Below the pieces are notes generated by a model. The model did no database searches, had not been told where the DNA came from, and saw only the letters and a program-made list of their open reading frames with translations. Positions 7,698-40,218 of a stretch of 41,683 bases of DNA are shown here, in pieces (position 1 is the first letter of the stretch; each line of letters starts with the position of its first letter). The translations under genes and the position numbers were made by a program. The DNA is from a virus: positions 1 through 41,683 of IMG/VR virus record IMGVR_UViG_3300033690_000035, one strand, 5' to 3'.

Positions 7698-7905
7698 GGA
7701 GAACTCGCAAGCGCGACGTGCGCGCGGAAAGAGGCTGAGCCGGACTGCGCTTCAGGCTCCCTTGCGGTAGTGGCTGGACTCGGCCGGGTGGCCCATCGCC
7801 CCAGAGGGGTAGAGGTGCGCCCTGCTTCGTCCCTGGCCTACATCTCCGGGGCCGACGTGTGTGACGCTACGTGACTTGTGGTGCCGGCGTCAAGCGCCCG
7901 GCCCG

Positions 7906-12968: not shown

Positions 12969-14477
12969 TCACCTTCCTCCGAACGCCCTCAGAAGCGCAA
13001 CGCCAGACTCGGAGACAGGCGCCCCGGCGCGGTCCTTCAGCGGCGGCAGCGTGTTCTGCAAGTCCATCCCGTACAGGTGCGGCACCCGTCCCTTGTTCGG
13101 CACCACGTTGCGGTGCCCGTAGAGCAGACAGTCCAGCAGGTCGAAGTGACCGAAGCCTTCCACCCGTTCGTACTCGGTGTGCTGCTTGTTCCAGATGGCC
13201 GCTCGGCACTGCGCCACCGTCTCCGGCACCTCGGGCGAGAACTCCACCTCGTCCCGAAGAAGCGCGTCCTGCAAGTCCATCAGCCCGGCCTGCTTGTCGT
13301 CCTTGCGCGGGGGCGTCGTCACGAAGTTGTACTTCTGCGCCAGGTCCCGACGCACGATGCCCAGGTCGTCGTCCATGATGCGGAAGTGGAGCCCGCGAAG
13401 CGTCGGCATCTGGGAGAACGTGGCGGCTTCCAGTGCCCGCGCCGCCTTCACGATGTCCTCTTCCGTGGGCCGGAGCAGCTTCGCCTCTCGCTGCGCCCGG
13501 AACTTCCGGCGAGGGAAATCGTAATAGCCCACCAGCACGCCGGTTGGGTCTCGGCTCCCTCCTAAGTCGATGAGCGTGTACCAGTCCGAGAAGAGCGGCG
13601 TGCTGATCTCCGCCACCGTCAGACGGTTGGCGAGCGCCTCCGTGAAGCGCGGCAGCACCGCCCGCGTCTCCTCGATGACGAACTCCGCCATGAACTCTCG
13701 GAGGTAGACGGTGGAGAGCATGAACTCCTCCACCGACATCCGCTTCATGTCCGCGCCCTGGCGAACAATTTCCCACTTCTCCGCCTCGGAGTAGCGCGGG
13801 GTTTCCCAGAAAGTCGCGTGCGCGCTCCGTCCCTTCGCCTTGGCACCGAGGTAGTAGTTTTGGAAGGCGTGGCCCGGCGAGTCCGGGGGCGATGAGGCAA
13901 TGACGCCCGGCCCGCCCGTGTTCCACGTCTGGGGCCAGAGCACCTCGTCCACCACCGTGGAGAGTTCTGGGACGAATGCCCCCTCGTCCACCACCCAGAG
14001 GTGGGCCTCCTGTCCGCGCAAGTTCTCGTAGTGCCCGCCGTCGCAACCGGCGATGTCGATGATGGAGTCCGCCTCGTGCGCTCGTTTCGCCTTCGGCGTC
14101 CGGTAGATCTGCAACTCGTTGGACTGCGAGTCCAGCTTCGGCCGGATGTCCTCCGGACAGGTCGCCAAGATGCGCTTGATGGACGGACGGATCATCTTCC
14201 GCACATCCACCTGCGTCTTCGCCGCGTACTTGATGGAGCGCCCCGAACCCTGGAGAGCACACTCCAGCGCCAGCACCAGCAGGGCGTAGGTTTTCCCCAC
14301 GCGGCGGGCGATGTCCCAGACGATGATGCGCCGGGTCCCCGTAGCCGCGTAGAACTGGCAGTAGAGGCGGTATTGCAGCTCGTCCAGCAACCACCACAGC
14401 CGCCCCTTGCGCCAGGCGTCCGCCCTCTTCTTGGGGTTGGAGCGGATGAGGCTGGCCGCTGCCTCGAAGTCGCTCAT
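12969..14477 (-). CDS. terL: Terminase large subunit (502 aa)
   Basis: This is the packaging motor ATPase and nuclease. The start is ATG 14477, overlapping the previous stop (ATGA). The Walker A-type loop is ARRVGKTYALL near residues 57-67, and the Walker B box is LWVVDEGAF near residue 160. The nuclease domain shows LIDLGGSRDPTG near residue 295, MDDDLG near 365, and HFDLLDCLLYG near 465, giving the expected acidic residues. Length fits the family. It follows the small-terminase-type gene block and precedes portal. The final 30 residues are a flexible tail. Function is well supported by motifs. Confidence 0.92.
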   Translation of the reverse strand: MSDFEAAASLIRSNPKKRADAWRKGRLWWLLDELQYRLYCQFYAATGTRRIIVWDIARRVGKTYALLVLALECALQGSGRSIKYAAKTQVDVRKMIRPSIKRILATCPEDIRPKLDSQSNELQIYRTPKAKRAHEADSIIDIAGCDGGHYENLRGQEAHLWVVDEGAFVPELSTVVDEVLWPQTWNTGGPGVIASSPPDSPGHAFQNYYLGAKAKGRSAHATFWETPRYSEAEKWEIVRQGADMKRMSVEEFMLSTVYLREFMAEFVIEETRAVLPRFTEALANRLTVAEISTPLFSDWYTLIDLGGSRDPTGVLVGYYDFPRRKFRAQREAKLLRPTEEDIVKAARALEAATFSQMPTLRGLHFRIMDDDLGIVRRDLAQKYNFVTTPPRKDDKQAGLMDLQDALLRDEVEFSPEVPETVAQCRAAIWNKQHTEYERVEGFGHFDLLDCLLYGHRNVVPNKGRVPHLYGMDLQNTLPPLKDRAGAPVSESGVALLRAFGGR

Positions 14478-20385: not shown

Positions 20386-20771
20386 CCTCCCGCTCCTACT
20401 CCTCCATGGTGGCTGAGCGTGAGGAGGTGCTCGCCCAGAAGCGGCGCGGACCGGCACTCACCCGCTCCCAACGCCTCGCCTCCGGACTCGCGGTCTGTCG
20501 GGCCGATGTCGCGTGCGGACGCGCGGTCTGGCGCCGAGGGATGTGTCGCTCGTGCGCCGCCGCCAACCCGTCCGCACGTGCGCGCTTGGGGGTGAAGGCG
20601 ATCATCCCCATCTCGTTCCCTGCTGACGTCTGGGCGCGGGCGATGACTCGGGCGGCAATGGACGGAATCTCCGCTTCCGAGTTGGTGCGGAGGGCGGTGG
20701 TCCGGGCGCTGGGTCAGCCCACGAGCGACAACTGCCCCTCGTCCGGGCCGAGCACGCGGACGTGCCCGTAG
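20382..20771 (+). CDS. Zinc-finger plus ribbon-helix-helix-like protein (129 aa)
   Basis: ATG 20382 overlaps the previous stop. The middle has four cysteines (CRADVACG, CRSCA) suited to one zinc. Residues 75-110 (IPISFPADVWARAMTRAAMD, then ISASELVRRAVVRAL) follow the strand-helix-helix pattern of CopG/RHH DNA-binding proteins. A regulatory role is likely. Its last 58 bases overlap the 3' end of the convergent methyltransferase gene. Confidence 0.6.
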   Translation: MTSRSYSSMVAEREEVLAQKRRGPALTRSQRLASGLAVCRADVACGRAVWRRGMCRSCAAANPSARARLGVKAIIPISFPADVWARAMTRAAMDGISASELVRRAVVRALGQPTSDNCPSSGPSTRTCP

Positions 20772-21334
20772 CCGCGCGCCTTCGACTCCGGCGTCCAGAC
20801 GAACCACGCATACTCGGTGGCGTCCGTCCCCTCGCCATCGAAGGATGGGCGTTCGCTGAGGACGTAGACGTCGGCTGGGTTGCGGCGCCAGAAGTCGAGG
20901 CGCTTCTGCGAGCCGAGGAAGTTCAGGCGAAGCAGCATCGCCACGACCGGGGCGCATCCCAGCGCCCGCGCAACGTGTTCCGCCGCCGCGCCGTAGGGCG
21001 GATTCCCGCACACCACGTCGTGCCGGTGGATGTGGGCGTAGCGCGGCGCGGCCGTCAGGAAGTCGTCCCGATCCGCGACCCCGCTTCTACCGTCGGCCGC
21101 CACGGACCGCACCAGCGCGCCCATGGCCTCCTCGCGCAGTTCAATCGCCGTCCACTTCACGTCGGGGCGGCGCGCGTTCACGGCCCGGATGATGGCGCCC
21201 TCTCCGGCGCTCGGCTCTAACCACCACCCTCCGGGCAGATTGACCGCCCGGAGCAGCCAGTCCACGCACCATGCTGGCGTCGGGAAAAAGTCCAGCCCTC
21301 CGCCCCCTCGCTCTCCTCGGTTGGTAGCGCTCAT
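20714..21334 (-). CDS. N6-adenine DNA methyltransferase (206 aa)
   Basis: ATG 21334 overlaps the previous stop (ATGA). The N-terminal FFPTPAWCVDWLL and the motif I region LEPSAGEGAIIRAV bind S-adenosylmethionine, and the catalytic motif IV is NPPYG near residue 124. This is the amino-methyltransferase pattern of phage Dam-like enzymes. At 206 residues it lacks room for a large target recognition domain, so its specificity may be short or supplied elsewhere. It ends the leftward early operon and overlaps a convergent gene. Probably protects phage DNA from host restriction. Confidence 0.8.
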   Translation of the reverse strand: MSATNRGERGGGGLDFFPTPAWCVDWLLRAVNLPGGWWLEPSAGEGAIIRAVNARRPDVKWTAIELREEAMGALVRSVAADGRSGVADRDDFLTAAPRYAHIHRHDVVCGNPPYGAAAEHVARALGCAPVVAMLLRLNFLGSQKRLDFWRRNPADVYVLSERPSFDGEGTDATEYAWFVWTPESKARGYGHVRVLGPDEGQLSLVG

Positions 21335-22338
21335 GGTTGAGCCCTCGTGGAGTGGAGCTCGATGGCAGCCTCCTTTGCGGGGCCGTCCGGCGAGCACGTA
21401 AGGCACAGATAGAGTCCCCGCCCCGGTTGCGTGGGGTCCGGGACGATCTCCCCCAAGCAGATTTGGCATGGGCCGCCCTGCCACGGTGGCGTCTCTTGCG
21501 CCCTCGTCGCCTCCGGGACGTCGCTCGCCACCTCGGTCATCTGGCGCAGTTGGAGTTCCGCCTCTTCTGCTCGTCCTCTCATCTGCTCTAGGCGAGCGGT
21601 GAGGGATTCGATCTCTCCAGCGCGCTCGACGCTTGTCTCCACTTCGGCCGCAAGGAGGCGCTCGCGGTTTTGCAGTTGCGCGGTGAGGGATTCGACTTCG
21701 GCCTTCCCAGCGAAAGAGCGGATCAACTCGGCCGCGCGCTGCTGGTTGTCGTCGAGACACGTGGGACGCGTTGTCGGATGGCCGCCGTCCGGAGCGCAGA
21801 GAGCTCCGCGCGCCTTCGACTCGGCCTCCAGCGCCCGCTCTTCCGCTGCGTCCGCTCGCCGTGTCTGTTCCTCCGCGATGTCTCGCTCTCGGAGCGCTCG
21901 CGCGAACGCTGCATCCGCTCGCCCCTTCTCGCGCGAAGCGACGGCCGCCTCGTCCCGCCACGCCTTCGCGAGCACACTCACCGCGTCGTCTAGGTATGGG
22001 ACTCCTTCTCCTGGAGTGCCTTTGAGAGCCTCGCGGATGGCGCCCACCGGGAACGTCGCCCCGCCGGTGGCTTCCTCGGCGATGCGCTGGCGCAGGTAGA
22101 GCACCAGATCTTGCGCCTCTTGGTACGCGTCCACCAGCGCATCCCGCCCGTTCCGAGTTCGCAGGGGCGTGCCGTACTTCGCGAGTCCGGCTTCGGCACG
22201 CTTCCGGAAGTCCTCCAACACCAACGGCAACACCGGCGCCCCTTCGCCCGCGGGCGGCGGTTGTCGTTCCCACGGGCGCAGCGGCCCCGACTCCATGACC
22301 GCCTCACGCGCCTTCGCCTCGCCGCTGTCGTCGCTCAT
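21331..22338 (-). CDS. Long coiled-coil protein with zinc ribbon (335 aa)
   Basis: The start is ATG 22338, overlapping the previous stop (ATGA). Near residues 45-80 is KYGTPLRTRNGRDALVDAYQ, a conserved helical module of phage proteins often seen near MazG-like genes. Residues 110-275 are long coiled coil with Glu/Arg/Ala repeats. A C-terminal zinc ribbon has CQICLGEI and, 20 residues later, CLTC. It could be an assembly or nucleotide-metabolism accessory protein. The module is known, the role is not. Confidence 0.65.
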   Translation of the reverse strand: MSDDSGEAKAREAVMESGPLRPWERQPPPAGEGAPVLPLVLEDFRKRAEAGLAKYGTPLRTRNGRDALVDAYQEAQDLVLYLRQRIAEEATGGATFPVGAIREALKGTPGEGVPYLDDAVSVLAKAWRDEAAVASREKGRADAAFARALRERDIAEEQTRRADAAEERALEAESKARGALCAPDGGHPTTRPTCLDDNQQRAAELIRSFAGKAEVESLTAQLQNRERLLAAEVETSVERAGEIESLTARLEQMRGRAEEAELQLRQMTEVASDVPEATRAQETPPWQGGPCQICLGEIVPDPTQPGRGLYLCLTCSPDGPAKEAAIELHSTRAQP

Positions 22339-22487
22339 GACTCCACCTCTCCAGCGAGCGTGGTCCCCGCGTCCGTCGAGTTGATGCTCACCGCACACCG
22401 GCAGTCCCCCAGCAGGAGCGCAAGGAGGAAAACAAGCCCGGCGGCCACCACGAACGGCGACAGCGCCTCTTCAAGGTCTCGCGTCAT
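22335..22487 (-). CDS. Small single-pass membrane protein (50 aa)
   Basis: ATG 22487 overlaps the preceding stop (ATGA). A transmembrane helix covers about residues 11-28 (PFVVAAGLVFLLALLLG), followed by two cysteines and a polar tail. The orientation is probably N-in. It could be a holin-like or inhibitory membrane peptide. No family recognised. Confidence 0.6.
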   Translation of the reverse strand: MTRDLEEALSPFVVAAGLVFLLALLLGDCRCAVSINSTDAGTTLAGEVES

Positions 22488-23538: not shown

Positions 23539-23771
23539 GGCGTCCACCCCTTCGAGCGCATCCACGCCTCCAGGCGCCCCCGCGTCCCCTGGTGGTCCAC
23601 CTCCGAGAACACCAACCCCGCCACCGCGCACAACCACCGCCCCCAGTTCAGCGTCACCGCCCCGCCGCAGTTGTGCTTCCCGGCCATCTCGCACTTCTGG
23701 CCGCTCAGCCCCGTGTTCGGCTCGCCCTCCATCCGCTTCGCCGTCTCCAGCATCGTTTCGCCCCGTCTCAC
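23535..23771 (-). CDS. Small Cys-containing protein (78 aa)
   Basis: GTG 23771 overlaps the replication-gene stop (GTGA); ATG 23753 is an alternative. Two cysteines in CEMAGKHNCGG could bind a metal with the nearby His. The remainder is mixed and hydrophobic near WGRWLCAVAGLVF. I do not recognise the family. Confidence 0.6.
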   Translation of the reverse strand: MRRGETMLETAKRMEGEPNTGLSGQKCEMAGKHNCGGAVTLNWGRWLCAVAGLVFSEVDHQGTRGRLEAWMRSKGWTP

Positions 23772-24622
23772 TCGCCACGCTCCTGGGCCAGGTCAGCCCG
23801 CACTCCTGCCCACATGTCAGTTTCGTCCGCCACCTTGTCCGCTCCTCCGCCCACGTTGAGGTGCTCCGGACGCCGCGCCTGGTGGCCGGAAACGGCCTCT
23901 GGCGCCCCGACGTCGTTCCACTTCGACTCCAGGTCCACGAAGTTGGAGCACCTCGCCTTGTACTTCGCCCGGACGCCATGCCCCCATCGCCGGATGATCT
24001 CCGAGCCGTCGTGCTTCTCCCGAAGACGCGCCAACGCCTTCCAGGACTTGCCGTCCGGCTCCAGGTCGAAGCCCCGGTCCTCCCGGAAGAGGACGAACAG
24101 CGTCGCGACAAGGGCTTTGTACGTTGCGTCCCCACCTTCGCGTGGGTCCAGCGGGGCGGCGCTAGCCGAGCCCGCAAGCTTCTGGCGCGGCGGGAGATCC
24201 TTTCCCAGATCTCCTTCCCTTCCCTTCCCTTCCCTTCCCACGGGACTCGACGGGATGGTCTCAGACCTTTTCACGGCGGGCCGTTTCTTTTCACGGCTCG
24301 GCGCTTCGGGGAGGACGCTGGCCGGTTCCTTCGGATGTGGGCGCTGGTGGCGCACGAAGCCCGGCACCCACAGCAGCGCCACGCCGGCCGTCTCGTAGAG
24401 CTGCACCTTGCCGATCTCGTCCAGGTCCGCCGCCAGCGCGACCACGTCCACCGGCCGGTAGGGGAAGAGGGTGGCCTTCACGCGGCCGGGTCGCCACTCC
24501 ATGCGCCCCTCCCGGTCCGCCAGCGTCAGAAGCCCCACGAACAGGGCCAGGTGGTCCCCGGAGAGGGCTCCGAGATCCTCGTCAAGGAAGAGCTCCGGTT
24601 TGATGGTGCGGATCCTACCCAC
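23768..24622 (-). CDS. Replication initiator-like protein with GGGAA tract (284 aa)
   Basis: GTG 24622 overlaps the end of the HNH gene by eight bases. The N-terminal MGRIRTIKPELFLDEDLGAL and RMEWRPGRVKATLFPY segments, with the later FVRHQRPHPKEP, match the conserved opening of phage replication-initiation proteins with a winged-helix fold. The C-terminal third is helical and basic. The central linker is low complexity and contains five tandem GGGAA units (24215-24239), so gain or loss of one unit would shift the frame. No helicase or polymerase gene was found nearby; the phage probably recruits host factors. Confidence 0.7.
   Translation of the reverse strand: MGRIRTIKPELFLDEDLGALSGDHLALFVGLLTLADREGRMEWRPGRVKATLFPYRPVDVVALAADLDEIGKVQLYETAGVALLWVPGFVRHQRPHPKEPASVLPEAPSREKKRPAVKRSETIPSSPVGREGKGREGDLGKDLPPRQKLAGSASAAPLDPREGGDATYKALVATLFVLFREDRGFDLEPDGKSWKALARLREKHDGSEIIRRWGHGVRAKYKARCSNFVDLESKWNDVGAPEAVSGHQARRPEHLNVGGGADKVADETDMWAGVRADLAQERGE
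24215..24239 (-). repeat. Pentanucleotide repeat (GGGAA)5 inside a coding region
   Basis: Five perfect TTCCC units on the plus strand, read as GGGAA in the gene. They encode the linker VGREGKGREGD. A 5-base unit is not a multiple of three, so slippage would switch the downstream frame off and on. This is the only short tandem repeat of this length I noticed. Confidence 0.85.
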
Positions 24623-25196
24623 GGTAGTACCGATACTTGGGCGTGATGCCGTCGCGCTTGTTCCGAAGGATGGCCTGGAAGTACCGGCACTGCCGTTCGG
24701 CGTCGTCAGGGTTGTAGTCCTGTCCTGGCGTGCCGACTCGATTGGCCGTGATCTCGATCGCCTCGTGGATGGTTTCGATGGGCCACTCCTGACTGATACG
24801 ACCCAAGCGATCGTACATCTTGACGTTCATCCCGCCGATGCGCTCTTCCCAATAGACGAAGATGGAGTCCACCACTGCCTTCCGGGCCTCGTCGAGCGCG
24901 CGCTGGGCGAGGAGGTATTCCCGAATTTGCTCGGCATGGTCTCCGAGTTCTTCGGCGGAAGCGCGCGGCGGGAGCGCCTTCGCGTCCAGCAGTACCGCCG
25001 CCTTGCCGCCGTTGCACGTTTGGCAGGCGGTAACGAGATTCGAGGGTTCGTTGCCGCCGCCCTCTTTGACTGGAAGAACGTGGTCCACGTGGAGCGGGGC
25101 TTGAACTGGAGTGTTGCCACAGTAGACGCACCGGAAGCCGTCTCGCTTGAAGATCTCGAAACGGAGGCGCTTCCCGACCGCCTTACGTCTCCCCAT
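24615..25196 (-). CDS. HNH nuclease-domain protein (193 aa)
   Basis: The start is ATG 25196, with GGGAGGGG ten bases upstream. Residues 11-70 hold a complete HNH domain: RFEIFKRDGFRCVYCG (zinc pair), then HVDHVLPVKEGGGNEPSNLV (His-Asp-His and Asn), then CQTCNGGK (second zinc pair). The C-terminal half is helical with an IRxYLLAQRAL segment and an RISQEWP motif. This enzyme could act in DNA packaging, recombination or defence against other phages. The preceding 136 bases are non-coding and include a short CTTGT/ACAAG inverted repeat. Confidence 0.8.
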   Translation of the reverse strand: MGRRKAVGKRLRFEIFKRDGFRCVYCGNTPVQAPLHVDHVLPVKEGGGNEPSNLVTACQTCNGGKAAVLLDAKALPPRASAEELGDHAEQIREYLLAQRALDEARKAVVDSIFVYWEERIGGMNVKMYDRLGRISQEWPIETIHEAIEITANRVGTPGQDYNPDDAERQCRYFQAILRNKRDGITPKYRYYRG

Positions 25197-25332
25197 GTGC
25201 AACTCACCCCTCCCAACCAGCGCCGCGAAACGCCGGAAGGGAGGGGGCCTCAGTGCTGCTACGAGGTTAAGATGCGTAGCCGGTTCGCGGGCCGGCAACT
25301 GTCTGTCTTGTACCAGAACATCCGGACAAGCG

Positions 25333-25801: not shown

Positions 25802-26058
25802 CGCGCCTCCGCCCTCACCGCCGCGTACCACCCGGAGCGCTCATTCCAGGACTCGGCCCGCTCCTTCGCCTCCCACGCGAGTTGAGCGCGTTCGGCTTGA
25901 GCCACTTCCTCCGGAGTCCCGACCCACCCGCGTCCGCAGTTGGGACAGACGATGCGCTCCCCAGGGTTGGCGCGGTGATTCCAGTTCGCCGCCCGGATGG
26001 GGACTCCGATGGAGCCGCAACCGTGGGGACACTTCGGGCAATCGTGCCAAGGCTTCAT
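25798..26058 (-). CDS. Small zinc-ribbon protein (86 aa)
   Basis: ATG 26058 overlaps the previous stop (ATGA). A rubredoxin-like zinc ribbon spans residues 7-45 with CPKCPHGCG and, about 25 residues later, CPNCGRGW. The rest is an Ala/Glu-rich helix. It could be a transcription or replication accessory. No specific family recognised. Confidence 0.65.
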   Translation of the reverse strand: MKPWHDCPKCPHGCGSIGVPIRAANWNHRANPGERIVCPNCGRGWVGTPEEVAQAERAQLAWEAKERAESWNERSGWYAAVRAEAR

Positions 26059-26381
26059 GGTGCCTCCGGTCCCGCCCCGATGGTGCCCGCTAGGATGCCG
26101 TTGAGCTTCTGGTTGAGGATGGCCAGCACGCCCGTCATGTTGATGCGGTACGCGCCGCACAGCGAGAGGTAGACGAGCATCACGTCTGCCGCCTCTTCCT
26201 CCTTCGACGAGTCGCCCTTCCCCCGGCACGCCTCGATGAGTTCCGAGACTTCGAGATGAAGGTAGCATCCGCGAGCGCTCCAGTCGGTCCGCCATCCGCG
26301 CTTGACGCAAGCGGCGAGGGTGTCCACGGCCCATCGGTGGAGAGTTTCGGCAACGGCGTAGTCCGGCGCGGGTGCGGTCAT
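26055..26381 (-). CDS. MazG-like nucleotide pyrophosphohydrolase (108 aa)
   Basis: ATG 26381 overlaps the previous stop (ATGA). The central helical segment LEVSELIEACRGKGDSSKEE, followed by EAADVMLVYLSL, carries the E-x3-E...E-x2-D pattern that coordinates magnesium in all-alpha NTP pyrophosphohydrolases. Such enzymes remove odd or excess dNTPs, and phage versions may blunt stringent-response or abortive defences. The length fits a single-domain family member. Its neighbours are small zinc and nuclease proteins of the early operon. Confidence 0.75.
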   Translation of the reverse strand: MTAPAPDYAVAETLHRWAVDTLAACVKRGWRTDWSARGCYLHLEVSELIEACRGKGDSSKEEEAADVMLVYLSLCGAYRINMTGVLAILNQKLNGILAGTIGAGPEAP

Positions 26382-26971
26382 GGCGTAGTCCTCGGTGCGG
26401 CGGGGAGCGTGGTCTTCGTTTCGACGACGGCGATCCGGTCTTCCACCCGGCGCGCCTCCTGGACGTAGCCGTGCTTCCGGCAGTGGCGCAGGAAGACGAG
26501 GAGCCACGTCACTTCATCCGGCCGGTTCGCCTGGCGCTGCCTGTGGCATACCCTCGCGAGCATCCAGACGTTCTGAAGCGTCTGCGGCACCCGACGACTC
26601 GCCTCGTGGTCCATCTCGGGCTTACAGTCGCCCTCCTCCCGGAAGTGGCGCCCACAGCCGCACTCGCACACGCCTCCGGACCGCGACATGGCGATTCTCC
26701 AGAGTTCCGCCGTCCCCTCCCTCTTCTCGGACTTGGATGGCTTGCGCGACCGTTCGCCAAGGATGAGCTTGCGCCACTTCGTCACGAACTCCGACCCCTG
26801 CTTCCGGGACTTCGGGCGGGCCCTGGGGGCGCGGTCGAGACGGGCGAGGGCGCTCCGGAGTTCCTTGGCCACGTCGGCAAAGACCGTGACAAGACCGAAG
26901 CGTTCGTCCAGTTCCACGAGATCACGCAGCCACCGCGCCGTCTTCTCGCTGATGCGTACTGAGCGAGCCAT
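26378..26971 (-). CDS. Second HNH-type protein (197 aa)
   Basis: ATG 26971 follows the previous stop by one base. The N-terminal 80 residues are helical and basic. The middle has a compact zinc and catalytic region: VCECGCGRHFREEG, then PEMDHEASRRVPQTLQNV, then ARVCHRQRQ. The DH, Asn and Cys-His order is that of an HNH nuclease, although the first zinc pair (CECGC) is unusual. The C-terminal helical region is charged. Two HNH proteins in one operon may differ in role. The nuclease activity is inferred from motif order. Confidence 0.65.
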   Translation of the reverse strand: MARSVRISEKTARWLRDLVELDERFGLVTVFADVAKELRSALARLDRAPRARPKSRKQGSEFVTKWRKLILGERSRKPSKSEKREGTAELWRIAMSRSGGVCECGCGRHFREEGDCKPEMDHEASRRVPQTLQNVWMLARVCHRQRQANRPDEVTWLLVFLRHCRKHGYVQEARRVEDRIAVVETKTTLPAAPRTTP

Positions 26972-28117: not shown

Positions 28118-28330
28118 CTACTCATCTCCTTTCACGGCGACCTCAATCCTCAGGACGGACCGGATGGACCCGTCCCGGCTCCGGGTGTCCGGAAACGCCC
28201 GGAACACCACCAGCCGCCCGACGAACGCCCGGACCTCCGGGTCATCGGAGGTGCAGACGAGTTCAATGCGGTCGTCCGCGCCCGACAGCGCGCAGTTCTG
28301 GCGCAACTCCCCAACCGTGCCGAGCGCCAT
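28118..28330 (-). CDS. Small beta-rich protein (70 aa)
   Basis: ATG 28330 abuts the TAG of the regulator gene. The protein is beta-rich (RIELVCTSDDPEVRAFVGRL, then VLRIEVAVKG). One Cys pair is spaced too far for a clear zinc site. Function unknown. Its place directly after the regulator may mark a partner gene. Confidence 0.6.
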   Translation of the reverse strand: MALGTVGELRQNCALSGADDRIELVCTSDDPEVRAFVGRLVVFRAFPDTRSRDGSIRSVLRIEVAVKGDE

Positions 28331-28600
28331 CTACGCACCTCCCGTCTTCCGCCACTGGTCCACCGCTACCGCCCGCGTCGGCCCACCGAGCAACTGCGCC
28401 ACCGACATCCCCAGAAGCGCCGCCAACTCCACGGCGAGATGGGCCGCCACCGCCTGGCGCCCGCGCTCCCACTTGAGGACCGTCGTCCGGTCCACCCCAA
28501 GCCTGGACGCCACCCACCCCTGCGAGACTCCCACCTTCCGCCGCCGGTCCCTCAGCGAGCGCCCCATGTCCGCGTAGAACTGCGCAGTGCTTTCGAGCAT
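28331..28600 (-). CDS. XRE-family transcriptional regulator (89 aa)
   Basis: The predicted transcript starts at about 28600, which is the ATG chosen here; ATG 28606 is an alternative but would lie upstream of the transcript. Residues 13-68 form a helix-turn-helix: SLRDRRRKVGVSQGWVASRL, then GVDRTTVLKWERGRQAV, typical of Cro/CI-type regulators. The C-terminal 20 residues are short, so it may bind as a small dimer. It starts the leftward early operon and would control the divergent promoters next to it. The leaderless start recalls lambda cI. Confidence 0.8.
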   Translation of the reverse strand: MLESTAQFYADMGRSLRDRRRKVGVSQGWVASRLGVDRTTVLKWERGRQAVAAHLAVELAALLGMSVAQLLGGPTRAVAVDQWRKTGGA

Positions 28601-28606
28601 GGCCAT

Positions 28607-28635
28607 CTTCTACCAGCGCGCCGCCCGTGCGTCAA
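28607..28635 (-). promoter_or_regulatory. Leftward early promoter (leaderless)
   Basis: On the minus strand TTGACG (28635-28630) and TAGAAG (28612-28607) are separated by 17 bases. Transcription should begin near 28600, at the ATG of the XRE gene, leaving no untranslated leader. Its -35 box lies inside the palindrome at 28627-28641. Confidence 0.65.
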
Positions 28636-28641
28636 TCGCAC
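28627..28641. promoter_or_regulatory. Operator 1, GTGC-N7-GCAC palindrome
   Basis: GTGCGTCAATCGCAC has perfect 5-bp arms and covers the -35 box of the leftward promoter. It ends one base before the next palindrome. Binding of a dimer here should block leftward transcription of its own gene. Confidence 0.6.
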
Positions 28642-28642
28642 C

Positions 28643-28657
28643 GTGCTTGACATGCAC
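28643..28657. promoter_or_regulatory. Operator 2, GTGC-N7-GCAC palindrome
   Basis: GTGCTTGACATGCAC has 4-bp perfect arms and covers the -35 box of the rightward promoter. Its centre is 16 bp from operator 1, so dimers could sit about one and a half helical turns apart. A weaker GTGC-N6-GCAT element at 28587-28600 may be a third site. Confidence 0.6.
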
Positions 28658-28675
28658 AGCGCCCGCGAGTAGAAG
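28647..28675 (+). promoter_or_regulatory. Rightward early promoter
   Basis: TTGACA (28647-28652) is a perfect -35 box. It is followed by a 17-base spacer and TAGAAG (28670-28675). Transcription should start near 28682, giving an 84-base leader before the ATG at 28766, which has a GGGAGG ribosome site. This is the best sigma-70 match in the window. Confidence 0.75.
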
Positions 28676-28765
28676 TGGTCTCCGTTGGTCCGCCGCATCG
28701 GGGACTCTTCGCCGGCACTTGCTGGCTCGGTCTTGCGACAGTGGCGGAGAAACGCGGGAGGCTGC

Positions 28766-28969
28766 ATGGCGACGTACGTGGTGGTGGCCGAGGTGACGGT
28801 GTCGATCCGGACCGAGGTTGAAGCGGAGAGTCCGGAAAAGGCCATGGAGATTGCGGAGGGCCGCGAGATGTCGCGGCTGTGCCACCACTGCGCGACTGGG
28901 GAGCCCGAGAAGGAGTGGGTGGCGAGCGAGTTGGACGGGTCCCCGGAGAAGATTCGGATCGGGGATTAG
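28766..28969 (+). CDS. First gene of the rightward early operon (67 aa)
   Basis: ATG 28766 has GGGAGG six bases upstream. The protein has a beta-rich first half (ATYVVVAEVTVSIRTEVEA) then a helix and a CHHC-type segment (LCHHCATGE). It could be a small immediate-early regulator. I do not recognise the family. Confidence 0.65.
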   Translation: MATYVVVAEVTVSIRTEVEAESPEKAMEIAEGREMSRLCHHCATGEPEKEWVASELDGSPEKIRIGD

Positions 28970-30684: not shown

Positions 30685-30974
30685 AGGTCCAAGCCACCGT
30701 AGTCCTCGAAGACCCCGACCTCGGCCCCCTGTCGGTACTGGTGGAGGCAGAGGTGGAACTCGTAGCGCCCGGACATCACCGCTTCGGACCGGCGAAGGTG
30801 CGCGGCACTACATGGGCTGCGGGCGGTCGGAGAGCCCTGCTCGATGACGGGAGCCTCACACTCCGGGGATGCGCTCAAGACCTCGTGGACTCGGACACGG
30901 CTGGCAGGGGCCACGGTTGGACCGTCTGGAATGCCCTGGTCATGGAGTACGACAGGCAGGCGGAGGCGGCATGA
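30681..30974 (+). CDS. Beta-rich early protein (97 aa)
   Basis: GTG 30681 overlaps the previous stop (GTGA). The protein is beta-rich with VLVEAEVELVAPGHHRFG near the middle and a hydrophobic end. No cysteine pair is present. I do not recognise the family. Confidence 0.6.
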   Translation: MKVQATVVLEDPDLGPLSVLVEAEVELVAPGHHRFGPAKVRGTTWAAGGRRALLDDGSLTLRGCAQDLVDSDTAGRGHGWTVWNALVMEYDRQAEAA

Positions 30975-31222
30975 ACACGGAGAAGAGGACTCGTCGCGTC
31001 GTGGTCGGACTGGACCGCCGCAACCTCCGGGAGGCTCTCGACGCCAAGCGGAAGGTTCTGGGCATGTCGTGGCGCGGGGTGGCCAGCTACCTCGCCATCT
31101 CGCCCTCAACGCTGACGCGCCTCAAGACCAGCGCCCCGAGCGCGGACACCCTGGTGTGCCTGCTGGTGTGGCTTGGCCACCCGATGGGCAAGTACGGACT
31201 GACGATGGAGATCAACCGATGA
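30971..31222 (+). CDS. Second XRE-like regulator (83 aa)
   Basis: ATG 30971 overlaps the previous stop. Residues 20-60 fit a helix-turn-helix (RKVLGMSWRGVASYLAISPS, then TLTRLKTSAPSADTLVCLLV). It is downstream in the rightward operon and could act on the same operators as a Cro-like antagonist. A Trp in the motif and a hydrophobic C-terminal helix are typical. Specific targets are inferred. Confidence 0.7.
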   Translation: MNTEKRTRRVVVGLDRRNLREALDAKRKVLGMSWRGVASYLAISPSTLTRLKTSAPSADTLVCLLVWLGHPMGKYGLTMEINR

Positions 31223-31857
31223 CTCCCGACGACGTCCCCCCGAGCGACCTCCCGACGACGGGCCACAATACGACGACGGGCGAGGTGCTGGACCCAGAAC
31301 TCCCGTGGTTCCATGACGGACGAGTCCACTCCCTGGCCGAGCTCGATTGGGCTGGCTGGGAACTCGCCGCAGTCGAGGGCATCCATCGGGACAACGAGCG
31401 CTTGGCGGAGGCGACCATCGCTCGCATCCGGGAGCGAACGGCGCGACTGAATGCCCCACTGAAGCGACGGGCGGAGGCGTTCCGGACGGCTATCGAGGTC
31501 TATGCGAAGGAGAACCGGGCCCTGCTGCTCGTCGGCCAGCGGAAGTCCCGAACGCTTCCGGGCTCCGGGTTGACGCTGAAGTGGACCGCGCGCGAGAGGG
31601 GCTTCTACCGCTACGACAAGTCCAGAACGCCGGCCGAGAACAAGGCGGCGCTCCTGAAGTGGGCGAGGAGCGAGGAGCAGTCGTGGAGCGGGCAGATCGA
31701 GCCCCTGACGCGCCAAGAGCCGGTCATCGACTTGGACCGCATCAAGGAGTACCTGGAGGCCACGTCGAGGCCAGACCGCCGCGCGCTGGCTCCTGGCCTT
31801 GAGTGGGTCCCTCCTGGCGAGACGCTTTCAATCGAAGTGGATGGGGAGGAGAAATGA
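31219..31857 (+). CDS. Gam-like host nuclease inhibitor (212 aa)
   Basis: ATG 31219 overlaps the previous stop. After a Pro/Asp-rich N-terminal 40 residues, a long helical part includes RIRERTARLNAPLKRRAEAF, and the following beta segment is RKSRTLPGSGLTLKWTARER, the order seen in Mu Gam-type proteins that bind DNA ends and block RecBCD-like nucleases. A basic FYRYDKSRTPAENKAALLKW segment follows. It sits directly upstream of the annealing protein, a classic recombination pair. Function is inferred from pattern and neighbour. Confidence 0.7.
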   Translation: MTPDDVPPSDLPTTGHNTTTGEVLDPELPWFHDGRVHSLAELDWAGWELAAVEGIHRDNERLAEATIARIRERTARLNAPLKRRAEAFRTAIEVYAKENRALLLVGQRKSRTLPGSGLTLKWTARERGFYRYDKSRTPAENKAALLKWARSEEQSWSGQIEPLTRQEPVIDLDRIKEYLEATSRPDRRALAPGLEWVPPGETLSIEVDGEEK

Positions 31858-32843
31858 GCGACACCGAAGCGGCGATGGGCGTGGAGTGCGACGAGTCGGA
31901 GAGGCTGGACAAGTTGGCGGAGGCGCTCGCCAAGGCCCAAGTGGCGATGAAGCACGCGGACCCGTCGCGGGAGGCGGGCGTCACGCGGGACAGCAATAAG
32001 AAGCGCAAGTACGCCACGCTCGCGGACGTGATGGACGCCGCGCGCCCGGCGCTGTCGGCGAACGGCTTGTCCGTCGTCCAGCACCCCAGTACCGGGCGCG
32101 GGTCGATCATCCTCACCACGTGGCTACTCCACGAGTCCGGGCAGTGGATGCGCTCGCGCCTGGAGCTGCCCCGTCACGAGGCGAGCAACATGCCCATCAT
32201 CTGGGCCATGGGGACGGCGCTCAGCTACGCCCGCCGCTACGCCTACGCGGCCATCGTCGGGGTGGCCGTGGAGGACGACGACGCGCAGAGCGCCGAGGTG
32301 GCAGACGAGGCGCACGAGGAGGCGAAGCGGGAGCGGCAGTCGCGCGGTTCCGCTCCGACGACGTTCCCGCCCTTCGGCAAGGCGAAGGGGGCGCCCATCT
32401 CCGGGGCCTCCGTCGAGCACCTGGAGTGGTACCTCGCCCGCGCCCGCGAGTCCCTGGCGGACCCGGACAAAGCGAAGTGGCACGCTCGGGAGTCCGCGCT
32501 CATCGGAGCCATCGAAGCGGAGCTCGGCCGCCAACGGAAGACGGCCCCGGAGGAGGCGGTCGCTCGCAAGGAGGTCGTCACGGCTGCCATGGCCATGTCG
32601 CCCCAGGAAGCCGGCGTCTACTACGCCCAGCTCGTCCAGGCAGCGAAGGACGCGGGCCAGCCGGACGTCATGTGGAAGACCTGGCTCAGGGGCAACGGGC
32701 TGGCTAAGCAGCAGCAAGTGACGGCGGAGCACCTCGCTCGCTTCAAGGAGCGGTTGGTGGAGATCGCGCGCCGCGACGATGACCCCATCGCCGGTGATGG
32801 TCCCGGACCGGGCCGCGAACCGGAGGACGACGCACCGTTTTAG
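31854..32843 (+). CDS. ERF-type single-strand annealing protein (329 aa)
   Basis: ATG 31854 overlaps the previous stop (ATGA). Residues 20-130 carry the ERF pattern: KYATLADVMDAARPALSANG, LSVVQHPSTGRGSIILTT, LLHESGQWMRSRLELP and AMGTALSYARRYAYAAIVG. ERF proteins anneal complementary strands for recombination-dependent replication or end joining. The C-terminal end (EPEDDAPF) resembles the acidic tip of single-stranded-DNA-binding protein (DDDIPF), suggesting the same partner contacts. With the Gam-like gene it forms a recombination module. Confidence 0.8.
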   Translation: MSDTEAAMGVECDESERLDKLAEALAKAQVAMKHADPSREAGVTRDSNKKRKYATLADVMDAARPALSANGLSVVQHPSTGRGSIILTTWLLHESGQWMRSRLELPRHEASNMPIIWAMGTALSYARRYAYAAIVGVAVEDDDAQSAEVADEAHEEAKRERQSRGSAPTTFPPFGKAKGAPISGASVEHLEWYLARARESLADPDKAKWHARESALIGAIEAELGRQRKTAPEEAVARKEVVTAAMAMSPQEAGVYYAQLVQAAKDAGQPDVMWKTWLRGNGLAKQQQVTAEHLARFKERLVEIARRDDDPIAGDGPGPGREPEDDAPF

Positions 32844-33681: not shown

Positions 33682-33753
33682 ACGACGGGGAGGGCTGGCG
33701 CCCCGAGCGGTCTCCAAAACCGCTTGCGCTGGGATCGATACCCAGACGCCGTG
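33682..33753 (+). tRNA. tRNA-Trp(CCA)-like element
   Basis: An anticodon arm (GCGGT-CTCCAAA-ACCGC, 33707-33723) gives anticodon CCA with U33 and A37. A 5-base variable region and a T-arm (CTGGG-ATCGATA-CCCAG, 33729-33745) follow. The D-arm is irregular: GGGC/GCCC with a 4-base loop, or CGGGG/CCCCG with a 10-base loop that competes with the acceptor. The acceptor stem pairs 5 of 7 bases, and T54 is A. No CCA is encoded. It could be a divergent phage tRNA, a decayed one or the tRNA-derived core of an attachment site. Confidence 0.4.
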
Positions 33754-33771
33754 CATGGAGGTGAAGACCGA

Positions 33772-38446: not shown

Positions 38447-40218
38447 CCCACCTCGTACCACTGGCCGTCAGCGTCCCGCTCGTAGCGCTTGCCGCCCACG
38501 GTGCGCGTCTCTGGCGCGCCAGCGGCCGGGGGTGGCGCGCCAAGATCCACGACTCCGCCGCGCCGCTGGAGCGTCTGGACCACCTCCGGGCGGTACTTCG
38601 CGGCCTTGGCCCTGAGCGCCGCCCGGAGTTCCGACGCGAGCGCCTGAATACCGGCCCGGAACTGGTCCTCGGTGGCGCCTGGACCCAAGCCGCGACCCTC
38701 CATGAAGCGCTCCGCCTCGGAGGGGGTGACGGACGCGCCGGACTGCTCATGGAGAAGACGTGCGGCCACCCTGACGGCGGCCTGACGGATGTTGATGTCG
38801 TCCCCGGACTGCATGAAGGCGGGCTTCTTCGAGTCCCACACGCCCGCGCCGGGGATGTCCCCGGTCCCGGAGATCGTCTTCTCCAGCAGGGCGAGGTCGT
38901 TCTGCACTTGGGCCAGGCCCTCGGTGTCCTTCCCGAGCTTCTGGACGTCCGCCTCCCGCGCACCGCCGAGACCAGCACCCCGGCGCATCCCCGCGAGGCG
39001 CGCTTCGTGCGCCCGATTCAGCCGCCCCTCTTCGGACCGCGCCCGCATCTGCTCCCGCGCCATCTCCCGGTCGATGATCTCCTGGAACATCGGGAACATG
39101 GCCTTCGCCTGCGCCGCCGAACGCCCCTCCGGAGGCACCTTCGCCCCACCCGGGAGTAGCTGCTCCACCACCGCCCACGCGGCCCGACTCTGGGGTGAGT
39201 TCGGGTCCGACTCCGCCCGCTTGGCCGCGTCCGCCTGCTCCATCCGGAGCTCCGCCATGGGGCGGTCCGCGTTGGCGTCCAAGGCGTCGTAGCCGGGCCC
39301 CGTCCCGCGTCCGATGGCCGTCCCGCCCGCACGGGTGAGTGTGGCAATGAGCCGGGACTGGCCGGCCGCCTTCATGGCGAGGTCCAGCGGGTCTGGACGG
39401 GCTGGGGGAGAAGATGGCCCCGCCGAGACGCCTGGGGGGGTACCGCCCGGCGGAGCCGCAGGCTCACCTTCATCCGCGAACGGAGTGGGTGGAACCTGCA
39501 TGTTGAAGTTGGGAGGGAGGTCGGTCGGGAGCGACACCGAGCGCGAGCGCACACCAGCCGCGCGCGGGGCCGGTCGGGGCGAAGGCGGAACGGGCGCGGC
39601 CTTGGCGATGTCCCCGGAGAGGGCCGGAGCGGAAGGACGCGGGGACGGTGCCGGGCTTGCCTCCGCTGGCTCGGGGGAGTTGGAACCCGGAGCGTCCCAC
39701 CACTCCTGACGTTCCGGGTCGTCCAGGAGGCGCGCTGTGGCCCCGCCGACCGAGCGGGCGAGATTCGTCATGCCGGAGGCGATGGCCTGCCCTCCGCGAC
39801 GCATCCAGTGGCCCTCAGGAAGCGCCGGCTCGGTGGGAGTCTCCTGCGAGGCCCGTCCGGCGGCCTGAAGGTCCGCGAGCATCGCCTCCCCTTCCGGCGT
39901 CGGGGGCGGAATGGCGGCCTGGGTCTCTTCTGGCGTTGGCCCACTGGCGGCGCTGGCCGCGTCGTAGGTGCCCACCGACATGCCCGGAGCCAGCGTCAAC
40001 GTCGGGCCGACGATTCGCTTGGGGGCGGCGCCCGTCGCCATGGACGCGAGCGCGGCGGCCGGCTTGGCCATCGCGGGAGGGGTGCCGCGCGCTTCCAGTG
40101 CCCGCCAGCGCTCCGCCTCGGGCGAGTCCGGGTTGCTGGCGACGTAGGCGGCGATGGCGGACTCCAAGTCCGGGTTCTGCTCCTCATCGTCGATGGTGGT
40201 GGTGCGGAAGCCGGCCAT
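38443..40218 (-). CDS. Large virion protein, ejection-type (591 aa)
   Basis: ATG 40218 follows the previous TAA directly. The first 330 residues are Pro/Ala-rich and mostly disordered, with an amphipathic stretch near 135-165. The C-terminal 250 residues are helical and charged and contain SGDDINIRQAAVRVAARLLH and ASVTPSEAERFMEGRGLGPG, a conserved module of podoviral internal proteins. It probably enters the cell with the DNA. It overlaps the next gene by four bases. Confidence 0.6.
   Translation of the reverse strand: MAGFRTTTIDDEEQNPDLESAIAAYVASNPDSPEAERWRALEARGTPPAMAKPAAALASMATGAAPKRIVGPTLTLAPGMSVGTYDAASAASGPTPEETQAAIPPPTPEGEAMLADLQAAGRASQETPTEPALPEGHWMRRGGQAIASGMTNLARSVGGATARLLDDPERQEWWDAPGSNSPEPAEASPAPSPRPSAPALSGDIAKAAPVPPSPRPAPRAAGVRSRSVSLPTDLPPNFNMQVPPTPFADEGEPAAPPGGTPPGVSAGPSSPPARPDPLDLAMKAAGQSRLIATLTRAGGTAIGRGTGPGYDALDANADRPMAELRMEQADAAKRAESDPNSPQSRAAWAVVEQLLPGGAKVPPEGRSAAQAKAMFPMFQEIIDREMAREQMRARSEEGRLNRAHEARLAGMRRGAGLGGAREADVQKLGKDTEGLAQVQNDLALLEKTISGTGDIPGAGVWDSKKPAFMQSGDDINIRQAAVRVAARLLHEQSGASVTPSEAERFMEGRGLGPGATEDQFRAGIQALASELRAALRAKAAKYRPEVVQTLQRRGGVVDLGAPPPAAGAPETRTVGGKRYERDADGQWYEVG

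Follow-up and report, generated by a model that had tools for sequence, protein, structure and literature searches.

The window considered here, the whole stretch of DNA that was analysed, is a 41,683-bp virus record with 69% GC, in which an XRE regulator gene (28331-28600, minus strand) is the first gene of a leftward replication operon and faces a rightward Gam/ERF recombination operon. The second leftward gene (28118-28330, minus) has no family match, and its ATG comes directly after the XRE stop codon. Several genes without assigned function separate it from a MazG-like gene (26055-26507, minus; 66% identical to 13591-13899 of the relative described below), beyond which lie an HNH endonuclease (24615-25298, minus; PHROGs), a replication initiation protein (23768-24622, minus; phrog_16167, 1e-32) and a DNA methyltransferase region (20714-22273, minus; phrog_799, 1e-40) overlapped by a competing frame at 21331-22398. 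Between 20714 and 22398 the minus strand thus has two long frames that overlap. One gives the methyltransferase match and the other matches several phage families without known function; possibly these are two overlapping genes or a frameshift.

The rightward transcript would have about 84 nt of leader, in which a GGGAGG Shine-Dalgarno sequence lies at 28756-28761 before the ATG at 28766 of its first gene (28766-28969, plus; phrog_9642, 3e-10). Small conserved genes (phrog_9642, DUF7736), a Gam-like end-protection protein (31219-31857, plus; PF07352, 4e-8) and an ERF single-strand annealing protein (31803-32843, plus; PF04404, 1e-17; phrog_155, 6e-29) belong to this operon, near the end of which lies a tRNA-Trp (cca) at 33682-33754 (plus). 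The late genes (terminase, capsid) are located elsewhere in the window; a tRNA-Ser call (gga) at 39659-39733 (plus) is antisense to a long late gene and possibly spurious.

Divergent promoters and operator palindromes

The sequence at 28627-28657 reads GTGCGTCAATCGCAC C GTGCTTGACATGCAC: two 15-bp palindromes of the form GTGC-N7-GCAC, one base apart, each enclosing one -35 box. The left putative operator, OL (28627-28641), covers the -35 of the leftward (XRE) promoter, TTGACG-17-TAGAAG (28607-28635, minus; boxes at 28635-28630 and 28612-28607), which has a predicted start at 28600 and a TGG before its -10 that resembles an extended -10 element. The right one, OR (28643-28657), covers the -35 of the rightward promoter, TTGACA-17-TAGAAG (28647-28675, plus; boxes at 28647-28652 and 28670-28675), with a predicted start around 28682. 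The -35 sits two bases differently inside the two palindromes, and their registers are not identical. The predicted starts are about 82 bp apart and the operator centres 16 bp, around one and a half helical turns. An earlier note on this DNA had described the mirrored promoters and the adjacent palindromes over their -35 boxes; all its coordinates for them agree with the sequence, and the palindrome arrangement is borne out both here and by its conservation at two early promoters of the relative. It had also proposed a weaker third element at 28587-28600, which has N6 rather than N7 spacing, lies within XRE codons and lacks its GCAC arm at the XRE start of the relative; with the wrong spacing and a coding position, it is not supported as an operator.

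Tandem GTGC-N7-GCAC pairs were absent from 100 dinucleotide shuffles. When 15-bp palindromes with any identical 4-bp arms are counted, however, shuffles lead one to expect 0.38 tandem pairs per genome, so that the palindromes alone are weak evidence. The promoter pattern TTGAC[AG]-17-TANAA[TG] occurs twice in the window, both times at this site (shuffle mean 0.0), and the combination of promoters and palindromes is not due to chance. A strict sigma-70 scan of the window calls neither promoter, because TAGAAG lacks the final T; both -10 boxes are poor matches to the consensus. A broader inventory of TTGAC-(16-18)-TA in the window lists the two divergent promoters and one before the major capsid gene, with no others.

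The capsid promoter belongs to a conserved non-coding leader, about 190 nt long, that precedes the gene for the major capsid protein (7698-7893, minus, in the window; L008 17331-17524, minus, in the relative). Window and relative have in common the promoter TTGAC[G/C]-18-TAGCGT and the long identical blocks GGCCCCGGAGATGTAGGCC, GGGCGATGGGCCACCC and AGCCACTACCGCAAGGGAGCC, and an Rfam search with the leader returned no match; the region is a candidate for a late promoter and a structured leader.

The operator in a single relative

Searches with TerL and MCP found just one relative in the collection searched, IMGVR_UViG_3300043331_001189 (terminase 61-62%, capsid 69% versus the window). With ERF as the query no relatives were returned; a pattern search of viral contigs gave no close relatives of the XRE, and the sole match in genome contigs was a distant Peptococcaceae HTH. 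The relative is 43.7 kb long and its genome is probably complete, because it carries a 97-bp terminal repeat. The two ends of the window map to neighbouring spots in it (L008 8417-8788 and 9016-9879), and the gap between these matches is about 227 bp in the relative versus about 213 bp in the window once the latter is closed into a circle. This makes it probable that the window is a nearly complete genome in circular permutation, so that what is absent from it carries weight.

Both strands of the whole 43.7-kb relative were scanned for matches to the 31-bp operator pair. The best match, at 19246-19216, is identical at 22/31 positions and the second best, at 13350-13320, at 21/31; six of 500 shuffled queries scored 22. 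The flanks of the best match are unrelated and not alignable (15/60 and 19/60 identical). OR is identical to 19230-19216 at 14/15 positions and to 13334-13320 at 13/15, and OL has a similar place at 13335-13350; the second half-sites of the relative's operators are weak. When the 43 TTGAC sites of the relative were compared outside the -35 box, these two matched the operator at 16/25 and 15/25 positions, and the remaining 41 at 10/25 at most. An exact pattern search for the operator pair likewise returned the relative as its sole match.

Both sites coincide with promoters. The first is TTGACA-17-TATGGT, the promoter of a leftward operon in which one gene resembles that of an annealing protein and another that of a nuclease; neither has a Pfam match, and the annealing-like gene is a partial match to the ERF of the window, so that the label 'recombination operon' is partly inferred in the relative. 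An early-operon protein of the relative contains an alanine/aspartate/tyrosine repeat (AYAADAA...; L007 18300-18510). The second site, TTGACA-17-TATTGA, lies between an XRE-MazG operon, in which the MazG-like gene comes directly after the XRE gene, and the leftward HNH/replication side; here the XRE gene is divergent to the replication operon, not at its head. One operator site is 6 kb away from the XRE gene of the relative, kept as a trans-acting site would be. As judged by sequence, the predicted operator stands in both phages on the replication side, on the recombination side and next to an XRE gene, and the arrangement differs. These comparisons show the control region to be real and conserved; the best evidence is that two early promoters of the relative are its top operator matches.

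A wider pattern, GTGCTTGACANGCAC-N12-TA, was found in 34 stretches of viral contigs (L011-L043), about two dozen of them distinct, versus one with the permuted left arm CGTG. This suggests that palindromic -35 elements recur in phages; the wider motif is not relied on, because the permuted-arm control is single and holds CpG. An XRE gene lies beside the motif in three groups (L022, L025/L043 and L028), and in L025/L043 its GTG start lies about 7 nt beyond TATATT and looks leaderless.

The regulator and its proposed role in early timing

The XRE protein scores 43.2 and 36.5 bits against Pfam cut-offs of 27 and 23 in the HTH_3/HTH_31 family test (HTH_31, 5e-11; HTH_3, 5e-9), and its HTH is related in sequence to that of the 434 repressor. 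It consists of the HTH only, has 89 amino acids when counted from the ATG at 28600 and ends at residue 91 when counted from the ORF opening at 28606, without a CI-type C-terminal oligomerisation/S24 domain. The recognition helices of the two phages differ (DRTTVLKWERG in the window against KRETLSRIENG in the relative).

The ATG at 28606, the first of the ORF, abuts the leftward -10. From the end of the -10 to the ATG at 28600 there are 7 nt (protein MLEST...); the XRE of the relative has 6 nt in the corresponding place (MLEPI...), and the gene that opens the relative's recombination operon has 7 nt. This spacing supports a leaderless XRE mRNA that would start at ATG 28600. The earlier suggestion of a leaderless transcript is in that measure supported, with 28600 rather than 28606 as its predicted start codon.

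A bare HTH protein that heads the replication operon and faces Gam and an annealing protein is in the position of Cro, not CI, and by this analogy the XRE would have the place of Cro. The window has its small HTH-only protein encoded first in that operon, and each of the two early promoters is overlapped by a predicted operator of the conserved kind. With promoters, palindromes, gene order and conservation in the relative as its observed basis, the following circuit proposes XRE binding, the sign of regulation and the timing. The XRE would be made from the leaderless leftward mRNA as the first product of the replication operon; its dimer probably binds OL and OR, each over a -35 box, and would in this way shut off from OL its own promoter, that of the replication operon, and from OR the opposed Gam-ERF recombination promoter. 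Since the starts are about 82 bp apart, polymerases at the two starts should exclude each other; with operator centres 16 bp apart, two XRE dimers could occupy opposite faces of the DNA.

We consider it fairly likely that the locus controls the early genes of a GC-rich tailed phage of 41.7 kb, and give similar credence to the proposal that the XRE is a CI-less, Cro-like, autoregulated early-timing repressor that turns down both early operons through the predicted sites. Points that weigh against this reading are the differing recognition helices, the single relative with its weak second half-sites, the poor -10 boxes and the shifted register of OL and OR. The docking sites probably serve timing control of early genes rather than control of dormancy. 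At close to even chance, and hence more tentatively, this lineage may keep a lambda-like early operator circuit without CI, with a single leaderless Cro-like protein and a single type of operator in charge of both the replication and the recombination operon; operon heads would have been re-sorted between relatives (a back-to-back pair here, two loci there), with the operator travelling with the promoters. If so, the locus would be a minimal CI-free form of the classic phage early switch, and would allow one to ask what Cro-type repression does without a lysogeny decision. The predicted operator also offers a means to recognise the early genes of an uncultured, mostly unannotated phage lineage.

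Alternative readings and known systems

The closest competitor, which we regard as unlikely, is feedback as in the C protein of a restriction-modification system: the XRE at the distal OR (centre around -50) would activate its own promoter and at high level repress it from the proximal OL (around -34), with OR blocking the rightward promoter throughout. C.Csp231I agrees with the window in size, in the pairing of its repeats and in a leaderless start, which is predicted for the XRE. However, TTGACG as the leftward -35 comes close to the consensus and has no evident need of an activator, and each operator sits on a -35, a position of repression for both promoters. A methyltransferase and an HNH endonuclease are present in the leftward operon, but no restriction endonuclease is recognised, and most genes of the operon are without assignment.

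The earlier note had left a choice between a lysis-lysogeny switch and early timing at a divergent XRE switch. Such a switch, with -35 boxes inside operators, is upheld by the sequence and by its conservation in the relative, and early timing by the place of the XRE at the head of the replication operon opposite Gam/ERF. A lysis-lysogeny switch, with the XRE as a CI-like prophage repressor and a second XRE as its antagonist, is improbable, even though temperate phages also have divergent operators and leaderless regulators (PY54 cI and cro, PMC4488713). In neither the window nor the relative was a tyrosine (PF00589) or serine (PF00239) integrase, S24 peptidase (PF00717), rve transposase (PF00665) or ParA (PF13614) detected, in searches whose controls gave hits. 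A lysis-lysogeny switch is therefore not supported, though lysogeny could conceivably be maintained in other ways. Also unfavourable to the CI-like reading are the lack of a CI C-terminal domain in the XRE and the direction of its gene, which shares its transcript with the replication genes instead of opposing them. The proposed antagonist, a short HTH-like protein (30971-31222, plus), has weak HTH matches (HTH_23, 0.024; HTH_3, 0.007, below the cut-off) and finds no match in the relative, though the relative keeps the operators; nothing supports a part for it in the switch.

Equally doubtful is that the palindromes bind another host or phage protein and that the XRE is there by an accident of gene order. 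GTGC-TTGACA-N-GCAC promoters do occur in many unrelated phage contigs without a visible XRE neighbour, but an XRE adjoins one operator copy in both phages, and XREs also adjoin the motif in the three other, unrelated contig groups. That back-to-back promoters merely coincide with accidental palindromes is very improbable, for all that generic tandem palindromes arise at the rate given above, since the relative has the site conserved at its two early promoters, between flanks that show no similarity.

The control region, read as that of a Cro-like early repressor, is ordinary in kind and its design in itself familiar; what is somewhat unusual is that CI is missing. In phage lambda, PL drives gam-bet-exo and PR drives cro-O-P, and the PRM and PR starts are about 82 bp apart. 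Like lambda and 434, the window has the gene of a small HTH regulator at the start of its replication operon, encodes Gam and an annealing protein opposite it, carries operators that cover the promoters, and has predicted starts spaced as those of PRM and PR. It differs in lacking CI, with no CI gene between the operons, in having two operators instead of three, in early-operon promoters that are directly back to back and in a gene at the Cro position that is predicted to be leaderless.

Temperate phage PY54 has leaderless cI and cro mRNAs from a divergent promoter region, and its Cro has one binding site and is believed to act as a repressor of cI rather than of its own gene (PMC4488713). A regulator mRNA at divergent promoters, leaderless by prediction in the window, is common to both; PY54, however, has both CI and Cro, whereas no CI was detected in the window. 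C.Csp231I binds two inverted repeats, OL and OR (CTAAG-n5-CTTAG, 15 bp each), upstream of its own gene, which is leaderless, and acts as activator as well as repressor (PMC4824078). Here too a pair of 15-bp inverted repeats precedes the gene of a small regulator, with a predicted leaderless start; the repeat sequence, the restriction-modification context and the documented activation of C.Csp231I are different, and the window, in contrast, has a near-consensus -35 and a divergent early operon. Finally, CI and MOR of the temperate phage TP901-1 are two opposing repressors (PMC7250872), and the window is like this system in that divergent early promoters would be governed from a shared operator region.
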